From positions 1-20,173 of IMG/VR virus record IMGVR_UViG_3300028156_000008: DNA of 20,173 nucleotides; one strand, 5' to 3'. The position numbers were made by a program, and so were the translations under genes. This document shows, in pieces, positions 3,734-20,173 of this stretch (position 1 is the stretch's first letter; the number at the start of each line of letters is the position of its first letter). Source of the stretch: a virus. Under the pieces are notes generated by a model. That model saw nothing but the letters and a program-made list of their open reading frames with translations. It was not told the origin of the DNA and made no database searches.

Positions 3734-3905
3734 TCCGAAAGTAATCATAGTATGTACAACTTGTGGTAGTAGTGCTGTTACTAGAGAAGGAATACTAGTA
3801 TGGAATGTACCAAAGCAAGAATGGGAAATAGAATGTATGTTTATGGAATACTTTTGCCATAATTGTCAAAAAAATACAGGAATTAAAGAAAAATTTGTTA
3901 ATTAA
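3726..3905 (+). CDS. Small zinc-ribbon protein (59 aa)
   Basis: The 59-residue product carries two CxxC knuckles, CTTC (residues 10-13) and CHNC (44-47), separated by a beta-looking segment. This is the layout of a zinc ribbon binding one zinc ion; such domains bind nucleic acids or proteins, and no further function can be read. The ATG at 3726 overlaps the end of the preceding gene by 8 bases. The final codons (KEKFVN and TAA) lie within the left copy of the 21-bp direct repeat that brackets rtcB, so the right copy at 5101-5121 looks like a duplicate of the 3' end of this gene. Confidence 0.7.
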   Translation: MGNPKVIIVCTTCGSSAVTREGILVWNVPKQEWEIECMFMEYFCHNCQKNTGIKEKFVN

Positions 3906-3907
3906 TA
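3887..3907 (+). repeat. 21-bp direct repeat, left copy (flanks rtcB)
   Basis: These 21 bases, starting AGAAAAATTTGTTAATTAAT and ending in A, recur identically at 5101-5121. This copy encodes the last residues (EKFVN) and the stop of the zinc-ribbon gene and ends 17 bases before the rtcB start. The identity is direct; its origin by insertion of rtcB is inference. Confidence 0.85.
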
Positions 3908-3924
3908 AATTTAAAAAGAGAAAC

Positions 3925-5094
3925 ATGAAACAAGTAATAACAACAGAAAGAGTACCTATCAAGTTATGGCTTGATGATATTGAATCTGGAGCACTAGCAC
4001 AAGCAAAAAATACAGCTAATTTACCATTTACATTTAAACATGTAGCTATAATGCCAGATAGCCATCAAGGTTATGGTATGCCTATTGGTGGTGTATTAGC
4101 AACTAAAGGAGTTGTTATTCCTAATGCTGTTGGTGTTGATATTGGTTGTGGAATGTGTGCTGTTAGGACTTCTTTAATAAATATAAATAGAGAAGAGCTT
4201 AATTTAGTAAGAGAAGATATTAAAAAGCTTATTCCAGTAGGATTTGCGCACCGTTCAACTATACAGAATCAGGATTTAATGCCGGATTGGGAATATATAG
4301 ATGATAAAAGATGGATTGTATCTCAACAGTATGAAAAAGCATTATTCCAACTAGGTACACTTGGTGGAGGCAATCACTTTATTGAAATACAAAAAGATAG
4401 TAATGGCTATATATGGATTATGATACATTCTGGTAGTAGAAACATTGGATATAAAGTAGCTGCACATTACAACAAATTAGCTGAAGAACTAAATAGTTTT
4501 TGGTATTCGGAAGTGCAAAAGGATAAAGAATTAGCTTTTCTACCTACCAATTCTGATGCAGCTAAACACTATTTTAGAGAAATGCAGTTTTGTATTGATT
4601 TTGCTTTAGCTAATCGCACAGTTATAGTGAATGATATAAAGCAAATACTTACAAGTGCTTTTGACTACATTATATTCGATGATCCTATAAATATAGCACA
4701 TAACTATGCTAGATGGGAACATCATTTCAATAATAATGTAGTAGTACACAGAAAGGGTGCAACTTCTGCAAAGGAAGATGAATTAGGTATTATACCTGGT
4801 TCACAAGGAACCAAATCATATATTGTTAAAGGTTTAGGTAATACAGAATCATTTACATCATGCTCTCATGGAGCTGGTAGAGCTATGGGTAGAAATGAGG
4901 CTATTAAAAAGCTTGATTTAGCACATGAATTGCATATTCTAGATAGTCAGGATATACTTCATAGTATAACTACTACTAAAGATTTAGATGAAGCTTCTAG
5001 TGCTTATAAAGATATTGATGTAGTTATGGAAAATCAAAAAGATCTTGTAAAGATAGTAACAGAACTTACACCATTAGCTGTAATAAAAGGATAA
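3925..5094 (+). CDS. rtcB: RNA-splicing ligase RtcB
   Basis: RtcB joins RNA ends carrying 2',3'-cyclic or 3'-phosphate to 5'-OH ends using GTP and Mn, so it repairs cleaved tRNA or rRNA. Seen here: metal-ligand motif VDIGCGM (D72, C75), GGGNH (N150, H151), IHSGSR (H168), a further His in NIAHN (H259), HRKGA (H275), PGSQGTKS, and SHGAGRAM, whose H315 is the residue guanylylated in the family. All catalytic residues seem present; at 389 residues it is at the short end of the family. I chose ATG 3925 (MKQVITTERV); a TTG at 3895 lies in the repeat and is unlikely. It stands apart between two copies of a 21-bp repeat and 0.7 kb from a tmRNA, suggesting repair of RNA cut by host defences. Confidence 0.95.
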   Translation: MKQVITTERVPIKLWLDDIESGALAQAKNTANLPFTFKHVAIMPDSHQGYGMPIGGVLATKGVVIPNAVGVDIGCGMCAVRTSLININREELNLVREDIKKLIPVGFAHRSTIQNQDLMPDWEYIDDKRWIVSQQYEKALFQLGTLGGGNHFIEIQKDSNGYIWIMIHSGSRNIGYKVAAHYNKLAEELNSFWYSEVQKDKELAFLPTNSDAAKHYFREMQFCIDFALANRTVIVNDIKQILTSAFDYIIFDDPINIAHNYARWEHHFNNNVVVHRKGATSAKEDELGIIPGSQGTKSYIVKGLGNTESFTSCSHGAGRAMGRNEAIKKLDLAHELHILDSQDILHSITTTKDLDEASSAYKDIDVVMENQKDLVKIVTELTPLAVIKG

Positions 5095-15946: not shown

Positions 15947-16924
15947 ATGATACAAGGACACTCTCAAATAAGAAAGAGTGATATATTAGCAGTAACTAGT
16001 GAGGAAGAGTTATTCAAGAAGTACTGTAATAATTTTGAATATATCAACGTATCATTTAAGAGTGAACTGAGAGAGGACAAAACCCCCAGTTGCAGGATAG
16101 CTGATCTAGGTAGCGGTTTACGCTATAAAGACTTTGGATCAGCTATACCTGCAACTGATGTTTGGGGCTATGTGATGTTAAAGTTTGGACTAAATTTCCC
16201 AGAAGCACTAGAAAAAATAGCTACTGACTTATATATCACTAGTACTACTGGTATTATAATAGAACCAGTACTACAAAAATCCTATCCTAGACCACCTAGA
16301 AAACATCTTCTTATTAAAAGAAGAGATTGGCTATTATCAGACAAAGAGTTTTGGTATAATAGATATAACATTACAAAAGAATTATTGAATAGTTATTGTG
16401 TTAAACCTATAGATTACTACTGGTTTAATGGTACTGTGTTTAGAGTTCTAAAACATGCCTATTCTTATGATTATTATTGGAATGAAGGAGTCTTCTTAAG
16501 AAAAATATATCAGCCTTATTCACATAAAAATAAATGGATATCTAATGTAGATACCACCATAGTACAAGGCATTGATAATATACCTAAATTAGCTCCGTTA
16601 TTAGTTATATCTTCATCTTTAAAAGACGTGATGTGCTTAAAACTATTAGACTATAATGCTGTCGCTCCTAATAATGAAAGAAGTTGGCTACCAGCTATGG
16701 TTTGGAAAAAGTTTAAAAAGAGGTATAAAAAAATAGTTATACTATTTGATAATGATGAAACAGGTCTAGAATCAGCCTCTAATTTTTCTAAACAATATAG
16801 TATAGATTACAAATATATTCCACTCTCATTTACTAGACAAAATAAGAATATAAGTGATTTTATTTATAATCACTCGTTAAAAGAAGCTAAACTATTAATG
16901 AATAGTTTATTTAATCAGTTATGA
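15947..16924 (+). CDS. DnaG-like primase with Toprim domain
   Basis: A primase that would make RNA primers for the phage fork. Residues 37-90 match the CHC2-type N-terminal domain of DnaG (FKSELREDKTPSCRIA, then YKDFG, DVWGYVMLKFGLNFPEALEK), but the zinc-binding Cys/His set is missing; only C27 and C49 are seen. The Toprim domain starts at LLVISSSLKDVMCL (218-231) and contains LFDNDETG (266-273; D268, D270). The position of the usual catalytic Glu (xxEGxxD) is Ser here (S222-S224), unlike classic DnaG. It may be a divergent active primase with another acid, or need a partner. It begins 6 bases after the SSB gene. Length is 325 residues, with no helicase domain. Confidence 0.8.
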   Translation: MIQGHSQIRKSDILAVTSEEELFKKYCNNFEYINVSFKSELREDKTPSCRIADLGSGLRYKDFGSAIPATDVWGYVMLKFGLNFPEALEKIATDLYITSTTGIIIEPVLQKSYPRPPRKHLLIKRRDWLLSDKEFWYNRYNITKELLNSYCVKPIDYYWFNGTVFRVLKHAYSYDYYWNEGVFLRKIYQPYSHKNKWISNVDTTIVQGIDNIPKLAPLLVISSSLKDVMCLKLLDYNAVAPNNERSWLPAMVWKKFKKRYKKIVILFDNDETGLESASNFSKQYSIDYKYIPLSFTRQNKNISDFIYNHSLKEAKLLMNSLFNQL

Positions 16925-17099: not shown

Positions 17100-17543
17100 A
17101 TGAACGAAAGAAAAATCACTGTTGCCTCAACAAAGGCAAACAAACCTGTGACATTTAAAAGTGCTGCAGCAACATGGGGCGATCTTAAGAATGAGTTAAG
17201 CTCCAACAATGTCGAGTTTAATGATAAGATGAACGCTGTATTGAAAAATACCAGAACTAATCTTGTTCTTGATGACGCTGTATTACCTGAAGAGGATATA
17301 ATTATCTTCTTAATGGCAAAGAAGATGAAGTCAGGTACTGCTAAAAAATCTACAGCTAAAAAGGCTCCGGCAAAGAAGTCCACTGCAAAAAAGCCAGCTA
17401 AGAAAGCTCCAGCCAAATCTGCAACTAAGGTTAAAGCTAAACCTGCTCCTAAAAAGAAGACTGTAGTTAAGAAAGTTTCAAAGGCTGATGAAGCTTTAAT
17501 GAAAGAAGCTACTGAGATGGAGTCTAAGCTTAAAAGAATGTGA
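17100..17543 (+). CDS. Ubiquitin-like protein with H1-like tail
   Basis: Residues 1-79 look like the PRTRC_C type of prokaryotic ubiquitin-like beta-grasp domain: strand RKITVAS (4-10), strand PVTFKSAAATW (16-26), helix GDLKNELSS (27-35), and later strands TNLVLDD (53-59) and EDIIIFLMAKKMKSG (65-79). The order and the KxxKSG-type end match Ubl proteins of PRTRC and phage ubiquitin cassettes. From 80 to about 127 comes a Lys/Ala/Pro repeat (GTAKKSTAKKAPAKKSTAKK) like histone H1 or bacterial HU-tail proteins, followed by a short helix (ADEALMKEATEMESKLKRM). The Ubl is thus fused at its C-terminal end, with no diglycine at the protein terminus. It could bind DNA through the tail. Start 17100 follows TTTCAAAAC. 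Confidence 0.75.
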   Translation: MNERKITVASTKANKPVTFKSAAATWGDLKNELSSNNVEFNDKMNAVLKNTRTNLVLDDAVLPEEDIIIFLMAKKMKSGTAKKSTAKKAPAKKSTAKKPAKKAPAKSATKVKAKPAPKKKTVVKKVSKADEALMKEATEMESKLKRM

Positions 17544-17722
17544 TTATGGACTCCAAAGCCGCTGAAATAGGAGTATGGCTTATCGTTATTGTTATCTTAA
17601 TTACTATAGGAATTATTTTTTATTTTAGGTTCAAAAAGAGTAAATTTAACTCTGAGCCTAAGTTAACAGAAGAAGAGTTACGTCTAATGGAAGAGGCTAA
17701 ATCTTTGGAAGATAGGCTTTAA
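17540..17722 (+). CDS. One-span membrane protein of the Ubl module (60 aa)
   Basis: A 60-residue protein with a membrane segment at about residues 9-28 (IGVWLIVIVILITIGIIFYF), a basic anchor (RFKKSK) that faces the cytoplasm by the positive-inside rule, and a 20-residue acidic tail (KLTEEELRLMEEAKSLEDRL). The tail closely resembles the last 20 residues of the ubiquitin-like protein encoded just before it (LM-x-EA-x-x-[ML]-E-x-[KR]-L in both), so they probably share a binding partner or arose by duplication. The start overlaps the Ubl stop (ATGA; an in-frame ATG at 17546 is an alternative), showing tight coupling. No known family is visible. Confidence 0.7.
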   Translation: MIMDSKAAEIGVWLIVIVILITIGIIFYFRFKKSKFNSEPKLTEEELRLMEEAKSLEDRL

Positions 17723-17748
17723 AATAATCAGTTCTTCCAATAATATAG

Positions 17749-17781
17749 AGAAGGGGTAGGTACATACTTACCCTTTCTTTT
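17749..17781 (+). terminator. Intrinsic terminator within the Ubl module
   Basis: AGAAGGGGTAGGT (17749-17761) pairs with ACTTACCCTTTCT (17766-17778) over 13 pairs (two G.U) with an ACAT loop and four T at 17778-17781. It separates the Ubl and membrane genes from the E2-like gene, so the two halves may be expressed at different levels or the stem may be partly read through. Confidence 0.8.
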
Positions 17782-17795
17782 AAAATTCTAGTATA

Positions 17796-19253
17796 ATGAG
17801 CCAAGAAATAGAACGAGAAGCAGAATTTGATCAGAGTGAATATGAAATGCTTGAGAATATGCTGTTAGCAAATAAGATACATGATGAAGTTATAACAGAA
17901 GTTAAAACTGAGATTAAAGAAATAGTATCTGCTAAACCTATTATTAATCATTATAAAAGGTTTAAATTTGATGAAGCAGCAGTAACTCCTGATACCAATA
18001 GAATTTTAATTGATTTTTGTACGCATTTAGATAAGTTAGGTGAATTAAATTATTTACCAAATGAAAAACATATTATAAACTACATACAATTTTTACAAAG
18101 TGCTTTAAGTTTAGATTCTATCTATTATAGTACAATGATGAAAACTTTAGCAATGTTTATGATTGTTTTTGACACTTATTATAAAGATAGATGGGATTTA
18201 ATAACTCTAGATTCGTATAATAGAATAGGTATAGCAGCTTATTATCCCGAATTTGTAATAGAAGATAGTGACGGTGAAACACATACTATAAAAGATTTAT
18301 ACGGCATATATAAGTTTTCTGGATCTACTTATACTGAATTAGAGATATTATATACTAGAATTACTATAACAGAAGAAGAAGCATCATCTAATTACTTCTT
18401 TTCTCATGGCAATTTTCCTAGTAACAGAATGATGAATGGAGGATATTATGGTAAAGTATGTGCTGGTTCTGGAGAAATAAAGACTATGATGGGACAAGTT
18501 CCTTCTCTAACAAGTCAAGATAGTCTTACTATAGAATTTGTTACACTTCTGGCTTTACAGTTAGAAGAGTTTTTTAAGTATGAGTACATCCCCGGCAGCC
18601 CTATGAAGAATATTCAAGCAATTGGATTTGGTGGACATTTTTCAGTACCTAATTTATTAGAAAACCATTTTCTAAAAGAATTTGTAGATAAAATTAGTTT
18701 AATACCCGGAATAGCAGTTAAAAATTCTTATTTTGGGCTTATATCATATTTACCTAATATAAATAAAGAGTTATTTGCTAGGTTAATAGAATTTACGTAT
18801 GTACCTAAATGTTTTTTAGATACTAATGATAATAGTTATTTTAATTCAAGTAATCCTATAATAGCAAATAATTCTGATGCTTTTAGATTTAAAGGTAATT
18901 TAATGATTATTTTTAGAGAAGAACAGAAGTATTTAAAAATAATAAAAGAGGAATCTAAACAAGTTGTAATACTTACTCAAACAATTCATCCTGCAACTTT
19001 ACGTTTAATACATGATCTAATTAACAAATTGTTATTTATACATTCAATACGAAATTCTTATGACAAAAAACCAGTCAAAAAACGAAAAGCGAAATTGGGC
19101 ACTGAACAGACCAGTAATCTCTTCAGAAGAAGGAGAGCAGTTACTCTTAACTCACAAAGCATTGTCAGGGAGAACCCCACAAGCGGGACAATATCCATTT
19201 CAGGACAAGACTACGTATTCCAAACCCAAACTGTCTCCGCCAGTACGACATAA
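17796..19253 (+). CDS. Candidate E2-like (PRTRC_B/Prok-E2-type) protein
   Basis: A 485-residue protein that I place tentatively with the Prok-E2-type proteins (PRTRC protein B), which act like ubiquitin-conjugating enzymes. The region 190-300 holds the pattern: a strand (TRITITEEEA), FFSHGNFPSN (H204), a Gly-rich turn, then YYGKVCAGSGEI with C222 as candidate active-site Cys (compare G-x-VC-x-G in PRTRC_B), and a later helix-rich stretch (IEFVTLLALQLEEFF). Before it is a helical, acidic N-terminus (1-60) with a possible coiled coil; after it is an unmatched 170-residue part and a basic Ser/Thr-rich tail (KKRKAKLGTEQ, FRRRRAV). The last 194 bases are shared with the JAMM gene in another frame. 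Function is inferred from partner genes. Confidence 0.5.
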   Translation: MSQEIEREAEFDQSEYEMLENMLLANKIHDEVITEVKTEIKEIVSAKPIINHYKRFKFDEAAVTPDTNRILIDFCTHLDKLGELNYLPNEKHIINYIQFLQSALSLDSIYYSTMMKTLAMFMIVFDTYYKDRWDLITLDSYNRIGIAAYYPEFVIEDSDGETHTIKDLYGIYKFSGSTYTELEILYTRITITEEEASSNYFFSHGNFPSNRMMNGGYYGKVCAGSGEIKTMMGQVPSLTSQDSLTIEFVTLLALQLEEFFKYEYIPGSPMKNIQAIGFGGHFSVPNLLENHFLKEFVDKISLIPGIAVKNSYFGLISYLPNINKELFARLIEFTYVPKCFLDTNDNSYFNSSNPIIANNSDAFRFKGNLMIIFREEQKYLKIIKEESKQVVILTQTIHPATLRLIHDLINKLLFIHSIRNSYDKKPVKKRKAKLGTEQTSNLFRRRRAVTLNSQSIVRENPTSGTISISGQDYVFQTQTVSASTT

Positions 19254-20173
19254 TGTAGTTGAAATGGATGGAGCTAGATTAACTATTTGTAATGAAGCTC
19301 AAAAACAAATAGACTATCTATTAAATAAGTTTCCTTCTACTGAATGGTCTGGTATTATGGTTTGGGATGTAATAGAAGGTAGTCTTCAAGACCCAGCTAC
19401 TTTATTAGTAGAGGTTAAGTATATACTATTAATGGATATTGGTTCTGCAGCTTATACTGAATATGAAACTGAAGCTGAACTTACATTAGATCTCTATGAT
19501 GAATATCCAGATGCAATGTTAATGAGGATAGGACATTGCCATAGTCACCATAGCATGCAAGCTTACTTTAGTAGTACAGATACTCAAGAGTTGCATGATA
19601 ATGTAGATAAACATGTAGCATACCTATCTCTTATTGTCAGTTCAAAATCAAAATATGTTGCTAAAATGGCAGCTTTATCTATTGACGAAACTAGACATAT
19701 AGTTAAAGATTTCGATGATAGTGAAGCTGTAGCAATTTCAGAATCTAAAAGCATGATTATTTATAATGTAGATATTATAGGTCAGGAACAAAAGAGATTT
19801 GAAGATACAGTAATTGATGCTAGAATAGATAAAGTTACAAAATTTTCAAGTACTAAAAGTAAAAGTAAGAATAAAAGTTATTCACCACATAATACTGATT
19901 ACTATGACAGAGTTTATAATTTTGGTTCTCACAATGCGGAACAACAGATGGAAATGTTTAAAGATACTGAACCTGTAGATAAGGAATTTGTTAATGGTAT
20001 AGAATGTATATTGTATCTAACTATTCCCCCACTCGAAATACATAGACTATTAAAAAGATTGCTTGGTATTAATGCGGAGGCTAATTTATCTGTTGAGGTA
20101 AAGGCTATGGATTTAATTCAAGGGTCAGCTTTAATGGATGAACTAGCAGATACATTTGAAGAAGAAATACTAC
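19060..20173 (+). CDS. JAMM (JAB) metalloprotease, partial at window end
   Basis: The frame runs open from ATG 19060 past the right edge. It has a full JAMM motif, the zinc site of deubiquitinase-like isopeptidases: E95 in TEWSGIM, and H161-S-H163 then seven residues to S171 and two to D174 (HCHSHHSMQAYFSSTD). It is the sort of protease that matures or removes a ubiquitin-like tag, and fits PRTRC protein A. Residues 1-70 are basic, Ser/Pro/Gln-rich and probably disordered; they share 194 bases with the E2-like gene. After the JAMM domain (about 70-230) comes a Ser/Lys-rich linker and another region of unknown fold. The stop lies outside. An in-frame ATG near 19266 (MDGARL) would avoid the overlap. 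Confidence 0.85.
   Translation, partial: MTKNQSKNEKRNWALNRPVISSEEGEQLLLTHKALSGRTPQAGQYPFQDKTTYSKPKLSPPVRHNVVEMDGARLTICNEAQKQIDYLLNKFPSTEWSGIMVWDVIEGSLQDPATLLVEVKYILLMDIGSAAYTEYETEAELTLDLYDEYPDAMLMRIGHCHSHHSMQAYFSSTDTQELHDNVDKHVAYLSLIVSSKSKYVAKMAALSIDETRHIVKDFDDSEAVAISESKSMIIYNVDIIGQEQKRFEDTVIDARIDKVTKFSSTKSKSKNKSYSPHNTDYYDRVYNFGSHNAEQQMEMFKDTEPVDKEFVNGIECILYLTIPPLEIHRLLKRLLGINAEANLSVEVKAMDLIQGSALMDELADTFEEEIL

Follow-up and report, generated by a model that had tools for sequence, protein, structure and literature searches.

The window, that is, the whole 20,173-bp virus record analysed here (IMG/VR record IMGVR_UViG_3300028156_000008), carries on its plus strand a gene cassette that very probably constitutes a complete phage-borne pathway for the conjugation and deconjugation of a ubiquitin-like protein (Ubl). 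The cassette encodes, in an order that recurs in many other phages, a Ubl precursor, an E2-like protein, a JAMM metallopeptidase and a ThiF-like E1 enzyme; their catalytic residues vary little or not at all, their folds are assigned by prediction, and the steps by which they would act on one another are those that we infer from these components.

The right end of the window cuts the JAMM gene. An initial annotation, made from the window alone, had described four same-strand genes (a Ubl, a one-span membrane protein, a candidate E2 and a JAMM protease) and, as its main test, had predicted an E1/ThiF gene to the right. All four open reading frames (ORFs) are present on the plus strand, at the coordinates given below, and two further viral contigs represent the same phage; one of them (L002) shares 99.97% identity with the window across 12,378 bp and extends past its right end. 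On L002 the JAMM gene is completed (L002:11265-12581, 438 residues) and the gene directly next to it (L002:12565-13356; Pfam ThiF 3.2e-17) encodes the predicted E1.

Components of the cassette

The Ubl precursor (17100..17543, plus strand; 147 residues) consists of a beta-grasp domain and a Lys-rich tail. An AlphaFold model built with 88 homologues contains a single beta-grasp domain (residues 1-76; as far as residue 70 most pLDDT values are 93-97) that resembles ubiquitin, SUMO, ISG15, DIX and UBX (Z 8.3-9.4), in agreement with the Ubl domain that had been proposed for residues 1-79. The domain closes with an M-K-S-G motif (17325..17336, plus strand) in which K77 is conserved in 100/111, S78 in 104/111 and Gly79 (codon 17334-17336) in 111/111 sequences; Gly79 is the predicted site of JAMM cleavage and the residue predicted to be conjugated. 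The remainder (17337..17540, plus strand), a basic linker and a C-terminal helix, is a tail whose removal is predicted; in the model it is mostly disordered (pLDDT 51-65) and ends in a helix at residues 128-146, and its length varies among homologues.

The natural variation of this tail bears on how the precursor is processed. In 18 phages the Ubl ends 1-5 residues past the conserved Gly (exactly one residue in 11 of the 18), no measured Ubl terminating on the Gly itself; the other phage Ubls have a tail of 21-213 residues beyond it. In phage cr106_1 (L013:5405-6608) the Ubl matches that of crAss001 through KKIKSG and stops after two more residues; the gene is split there, with an HNH endonuclease gene after the shortened Ubl and the tail resuming as its own ORF, and neither a group I intron nor any other known intron family was detected in this Ubl gene. 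Because the 18 short Ubls end so near the Gly and the cr106_1 gene is split at KKIKSG, the Ubl is probably made as a precursor from which the JAMM protein trims the tail after the Gly. Several phages with short Ubls have a separate small helical gene in the place of the tail, between Ubl and E2, and some of these genes share a C-terminal motif with the long Ubl tails (combined p 7e-5 assuming independence; 6/13 genes at ≤0.05, most others near chance). A history of tail fusion and fission read from this motif is suggestive only, about half of the genes having no such resemblance.

The JAMM metallopeptidase, the predicted processing and deconjugating enzyme, occupies 19060..20173 (plus strand) in the window, where it matches Prok-JAB (3e-5). 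Its start, at 19060 or 19261, is uncertain because its frame overlaps that of the E2-like gene (window 19060-19253); such an overlap is found in most loci, with a median of about 68 bases for stop-bounded frames, and hints at translational coupling. The full set of catalytic residues that the initial annotation reported for it is present, on the plus strand, and nearly or wholly invariant: E95 (codon 19342-19344; 119/119), H161 (19540-19542; 119/120), H163 (19546-19548; 120/120), S171 (19570-19572; 122/122) and D174 (19579-19581; 122/122), with the canonical spacing HxH-x7-S-x2-D. The best matches of its profile among solved structures, CSN5 and archaeal JAMM1, are weak but span the HSH...S..D active site. 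In the Flavobacterium phage Fpv1 (L015:6964-7994) the JAMM gene is interrupted directly before the HSH codons by a group I intron that holds a LAGLIDADG homing endonuclease gene on the opposite strand; the Rfam match of the intron (E 2.6e-9) falls short of the gathering score. The gene of phage FpV4 is uninterrupted, and the JAMM exons of the two phages are near-identical.

The predicted E2-like conjugating enzyme (17796..19253, plus strand; 485 residues) was identified by conservation and by the topology of its AlphaFold model. The candidate E2 cysteine of the initial annotation, C222 (codon 18459-18461), is invariant (120/120) and is the sole invariant Cys of the protein; H204 (codon 18405-18407; 119/119), G224 (120/120) and E263 (120/120) are likewise conserved throughout. 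In the model, the core (residues 108-261) runs helix, four-strand meander, H204, C222, helix, helix, the order found in E2s. When the Foldseek candidates were re-aligned with the model, the neighbors were almost wholly E2, UEV and RWD proteins, including CBASS Cap2, with Z of 4.7-6.5.

The E1 has the GxGGIG motif, and D66, N72, Q76, K87 and R132 are present in 121/121 sequences; C210 (118/118) is, judging from its position, most likely the thioester cysteine. Among solved structures its profile is matched best by UBA5, a protein-conjugating E1 (2e-12). A poorly conserved gene, gene X, lies directly after the E1 (L002:13353-14357; in crAss phages, e.g., L008:10375-11187); its product could be a substrate adaptor or a target, or could be unrelated.

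The one-span membrane protein (17546..17722, plus strand), which the initial annotation had counted as a member of the module, has the span (19-residue hydropathy maximum 2.91) and is particular to this phage. A start at ATG 17546 (58 residues) is more likely than one at GTG 17540. Its C-terminal motif resembles the Ubl tails; set against 2892 non-Ubl background ORFs, its score ranks within the top 0.9%. As a conserved part of the cassette it was rejected: none of the small genes that separate Ubl from E2 in the examined short-Ubl loci has a comparable span, and among the small genes examined at this position only the window's 58-60-residue protein has a clear one.

Distribution and inheritance of the cassette

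Profile scans of IMG/VR yielded 160 loci, which were merged with loci from other sources and freed of duplicates to give 124. All four genes occur in the fixed order Ubl, E2-like, JAMM, E1 in 106 of these; of ten incomplete loci that were inspected, seven hold a Ubl gene missed by the first profile. Every complete locus includes the E2-like protein, and in all of them E1 and E2 are separate genes. Because one gene order recurs in about 120 distinct loci, chance is excluded as an explanation. In 50,697 phage records, JAMM was found in 74 and E1 in 74, with identical organism tallies; in 84,980 bacterial species genomes this type of E1 occurs on only three short contigs of metagenome-assembled genomes, and no cellular source was found.

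The cassette, which occurs in many crAss-like viruses infecting bacteria of the gut or the environment, lies among replication genes. In the window, a DNA primase (Toprim) gene is located upstream (15947..16924, plus strand; phrog_12622 DNA primase, 3e-25), and in 94 of the 98 loci with enough sequence a same-strand primase precedes the cassette by no more than 4.5 kb; a uracil-DNA glycosylase gene is within 4.5 kb in 64 of 81. In crAss001, DAC15, cr111_1, cr126_1, cr128_1, cr85_1 and other Steigviridae the order is primase, Ubl, E2-like, JAMM, ThiF, gene X, uracil-DNA glycosylase; the Flavobacterium phages FpV4 and Fpv1 have the cassette with the glycosylase upstream instead. The crAss001 proteins are Gp79 (Ubl), Gp78 (E2-like), Gp77 (JAMM) and Gp76 (E1). 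The primase and PolA of the window phage find their best tblastn matches in crAss-like phages, and from these crAss-type proteins we place the phage, provisionally, in Crassvirales.

Sequence distances for E1, E2 and JAMM are mutually correlated and also correlated with those for the primase; when the primase is controlled for, partial correlations of 0.16 to 0.50 persist, none of which was reached in 500 permutations. The cassette has therefore been passed on as a unit and, for the most part, together with the phage.

Two other genes of this phage were noted. An RtcB-type RNA ligase is encoded in the window at 3895-5094 (Pfam E 1e-110), and downstream of the uracil-DNA glycosylase an adenylosuccinate synthetase (PurA-like) gene is found (L002:17620-18756). 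Enzymes of the latter type produce modified purines in the DNA of some other phages.

Proposed reactions, purpose and alternatives

In the pathway that we propose, the JAMM protein would cut the Ubl precursor after Gly79 of K-x-K-S-G and free the tail. The ThiF-like E1 would adenylate the exposed Gly and then bind it through a thioester, for which Cys210 is the most likely site; the Ubl would next be handed to Cys222 of the E2-like protein and from there to lysines of targets, no dedicated E3 being seen. The JAMM protein would also strip the tag from its targets.

Several observations weigh against this reading. The E2-like protein has no match in sequence searches of Pfam, NCBIfam, PADLOC and the PDB, and no sequence-profile match to any E2; a plain Foldseek search with the full 485-residue model gave nothing significant (best E 0.51, an E2). 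The assignment relies on a predicted model whose Z values are modest, 6.5 at the highest. H202-x-H204, C222 and E263 could alternatively form a metal-binding set. Some Crassvirales lack the cassette, which is therefore not essential to the order; in cr10_1 (Suoliviridae) the interval between primase and endonuclease/exonuclease lacks it, and the cassette is therefore a lineage-specific part of the replication module. The E2/RWD-like fold that had been expected around C222 stands on its topology and on its E2, UEV and RWD neighbors, and its scores are modest. Since the neighbor list is consistent and the Cys is invariant, E2 is the best reading of the modelled 485-residue protein, although it is not proven.

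As for what the pathway is used for, control of phage or host proteins of DNA replication and maintenance during infection seems the likeliest purpose, at somewhat less than an even chance, because the cassette lies within the replication module and stays together as a block; its position speaks for a role in replication or takeover. In a tentative, more specific form, less secure again, the Ubl would be fused to a second functional protein (the tail), the JAMM protein would free both, and conjugation would regulate the phage replisome in a SUMO-like manner, for example in Steigviridae.

The main alternative keeps the biochemistry and changes the purpose: E1, E2 and JAMM would be aimed mainly at host CBASS Cap2/Cap3 or Bil/Bub systems, or would tag host defence proteins with the phage Ubl. 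Host systems of the ubiquitin-like type do act against phages (PMC10097602, PMC11354881), E1-E2 and BilD defence models match the E1 weakly, and the cassette is missing at the equivalent spot of the Suoliviridae genome, as is frequent for accessory functions. We nevertheless consider counter-defence somewhat less likely than replication control: a dedicated Ubl with an invariant Gly would be unneeded for the mere removal of host tags, and the cassette has its constant place in the replication module, with a primase beside nearly all loci, and is not among early or variable genes.

It is improbable that the E2-like protein is a metal-binding or structural scaffold (UEV/RWD-like) beside which E1 and JAMM act without an E2. 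The moderate fold scores and the possible HxH...C...E metal site would suit such a role, as would its top structural neighbor (VIA), an RWD-type chain of the TREX/THO complex; however, RWD and UEV folds have no catalytic Cys, whereas the Cys and its C-x-G context are invariant in 120 sequences, and C-x-G also occurs in the PRTRC_B E2s.

Still less probable is a sulfur carrier, that is, a ThiS/MoaD-like Ubl that ThiF would activate as a thiocarboxylate donor for a modified nucleoside or cofactor. In GenBank the E1 goes by 'thiamine biosynthesis protein' or 'ThiF', which points this way, and in one record by 'E1 enzyme family protein'; the JAMM protein is entered as 'metalloprotease domain' or hypothetical, and Ubl and E2 as hypothetical. 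Also in favor, the best NCBIfam matches of the E1 are ThiF models, all under the cut-off, and JAB proteins are present in some sulfur-transfer operons (PMC1779556). However, an E2-like protein with an invariant Cys belongs to every complete locus, no rhodanese, cysteine synthase or thiamine gene is seen adjacent in the annotated loci, and the Ubl domains close in SG or AG, not GG. Natural-product synthesis of the MccB/PaaA type, in which the ThiF enzyme would activate the Ubl tail or a peptide, is hardly credible even though MccB and PaaA follow UBA5 among the solved matches of the E1 profile, given that JAMM and an E2-like protein are present and that the conserved residue is the Gly closing the Ubl fold, not the end of a tail that is free in length and sequence.

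We found no paper that names this cassette or describes one as a standard phage part; the main texts of crAss genome papers and of a Crassvirales review mention neither ubiquitin nor ThiF (supplements and subscription papers, e.g., Yutin 2018, were outside the scope). Work on ubiquitin-like tagging in bacteria has so far dealt almost exclusively with host defence and with plasmids. Here, the replication block of cultured gut phages, crAss001 and its relatives on Bacteroides, and of the Fpv phages on Flavobacterium includes the whole predicted pathway as a standard component, so whether bacterial viruses modify proteins with a ubiquitin of their own becomes testable in culturable systems, and perhaps in existing proteomics data, because a tagged lysine would be expected to retain Ser-Gly (+144.05 Da) after digestion with trypsin.

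Comparison with known systems

The initial annotation had filed the cassette with PRTRC (ParB-related, ThiF-related cassette), a system of plasmid loci with the order ParB, E, C (Ubl), F, B (E2), A (JAB), ThiF. This system and the operon known as type 6d are, by our own identification, presumably one and the same. Type 6d comes from the operon types of Iyer et al. 2006 (PMC1779556). The core order Ubl (C), E2-like (B), JAB (A), ThiF equals that of the phages; in addition, the Ubl has a conserved Gly (AKG/TKG in PRTRC, KSG in the phages), the E2 Cys is followed by x-Gly (C-x-G) in both PRTRC_B and the phage protein, HSH...FFS..D is found in the JAB, and E1 and JAMM are related by profile comparison. 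The differences are that an invariant His precedes the Cys in the phage E2-like protein, whereas the 6d E2 reportedly lacks this His and has one after the Cys (PMC1779556), and that the phage Ubls extend 1-213 residues beyond the Gly whereas the four PRTRC Ubls compared end on it.

Models of PRTRC_B, PRTRC_C, PRTRC_F and ParB were run on seven complete phage genomes and on the L002 record, and all matched a control plasmid. In the phages, TIGR03737 (PRTRC_B) and TIGR03738 (PRTRC_C) had no match up to E 1, and the PRTRC_F model had none; PRTRC_ThiF scored 40.7 bits against a cut-off of 144.75, and PRTRC_A 14.5 against 101.8 (with the window part of JAMM only). The ParB-like gene that had been anticipated beyond the window was not found by TIGR03734 or PF02195, in L002 or in the other genomes. 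Profile-to-profile alignment with hhalign, for the proposed pairing of 17796-19253 with PRTRC_B, was not significant, the single aligned stretch being the Cys motif; for 17100-17543 and PRTRC_C it gave nothing. Membership in PRTRC is therefore rejected: every gene model tested fails and ParB is lacking, despite the matching core order, and at most the phage cassette would function in the manner of the PRTRC core.

The eukaryotic UFM1 pathway resembles the cassette through UBA5, which heads the solved matches of the E1 profile, and through UFC1, which recurs in the Foldseek list of the E2-like protein and is not significant; for Ubl and E2, no relation was detected at the sequence level. UFM1 also requires C-terminal trimming, which is carried out by cysteine proteases, not by a JAMM enzyme.

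The tail assembly proteins I and K of lambda and T1 also place a phage Ubl beside a JAB protein, which is predicted to release the Ubl at its Gly (PMC1779556); however, no E1 or E2 is described with them, and they are sited in the tail-assembly module. CBASS shares the E1/E2 chemistry and a JAB remover (Cap3), and Cap2 is among the structural matches of the phage E2; Cap2, however, fuses E1 and E2 and tags with the C-terminal Gly of the cGAS-like enzyme itself (PMC10097602), whereas the phages have four genes and a dedicated Ubl. BilABCD and Bub, like the phage cassette, have separate Ubl, E2, JAMM and E1 genes, and trimming of the Ubl by JAMM is part of the likeness: the JAMM protein BilC is reported to trim the Ubl precursor BilA and expose its Gly (PMC11354881). 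BilA has two Ubl domains, whereas the phage Ubl has one; the E2 BilB has a CEHH motif (Cys138, Glu144, His146, His151), whereas in the phage protein H202/H204 precede C222 and E263 follows; and Bil and Bub are encoded by the host that they defend, whereas the genes described here are carried by the phage.

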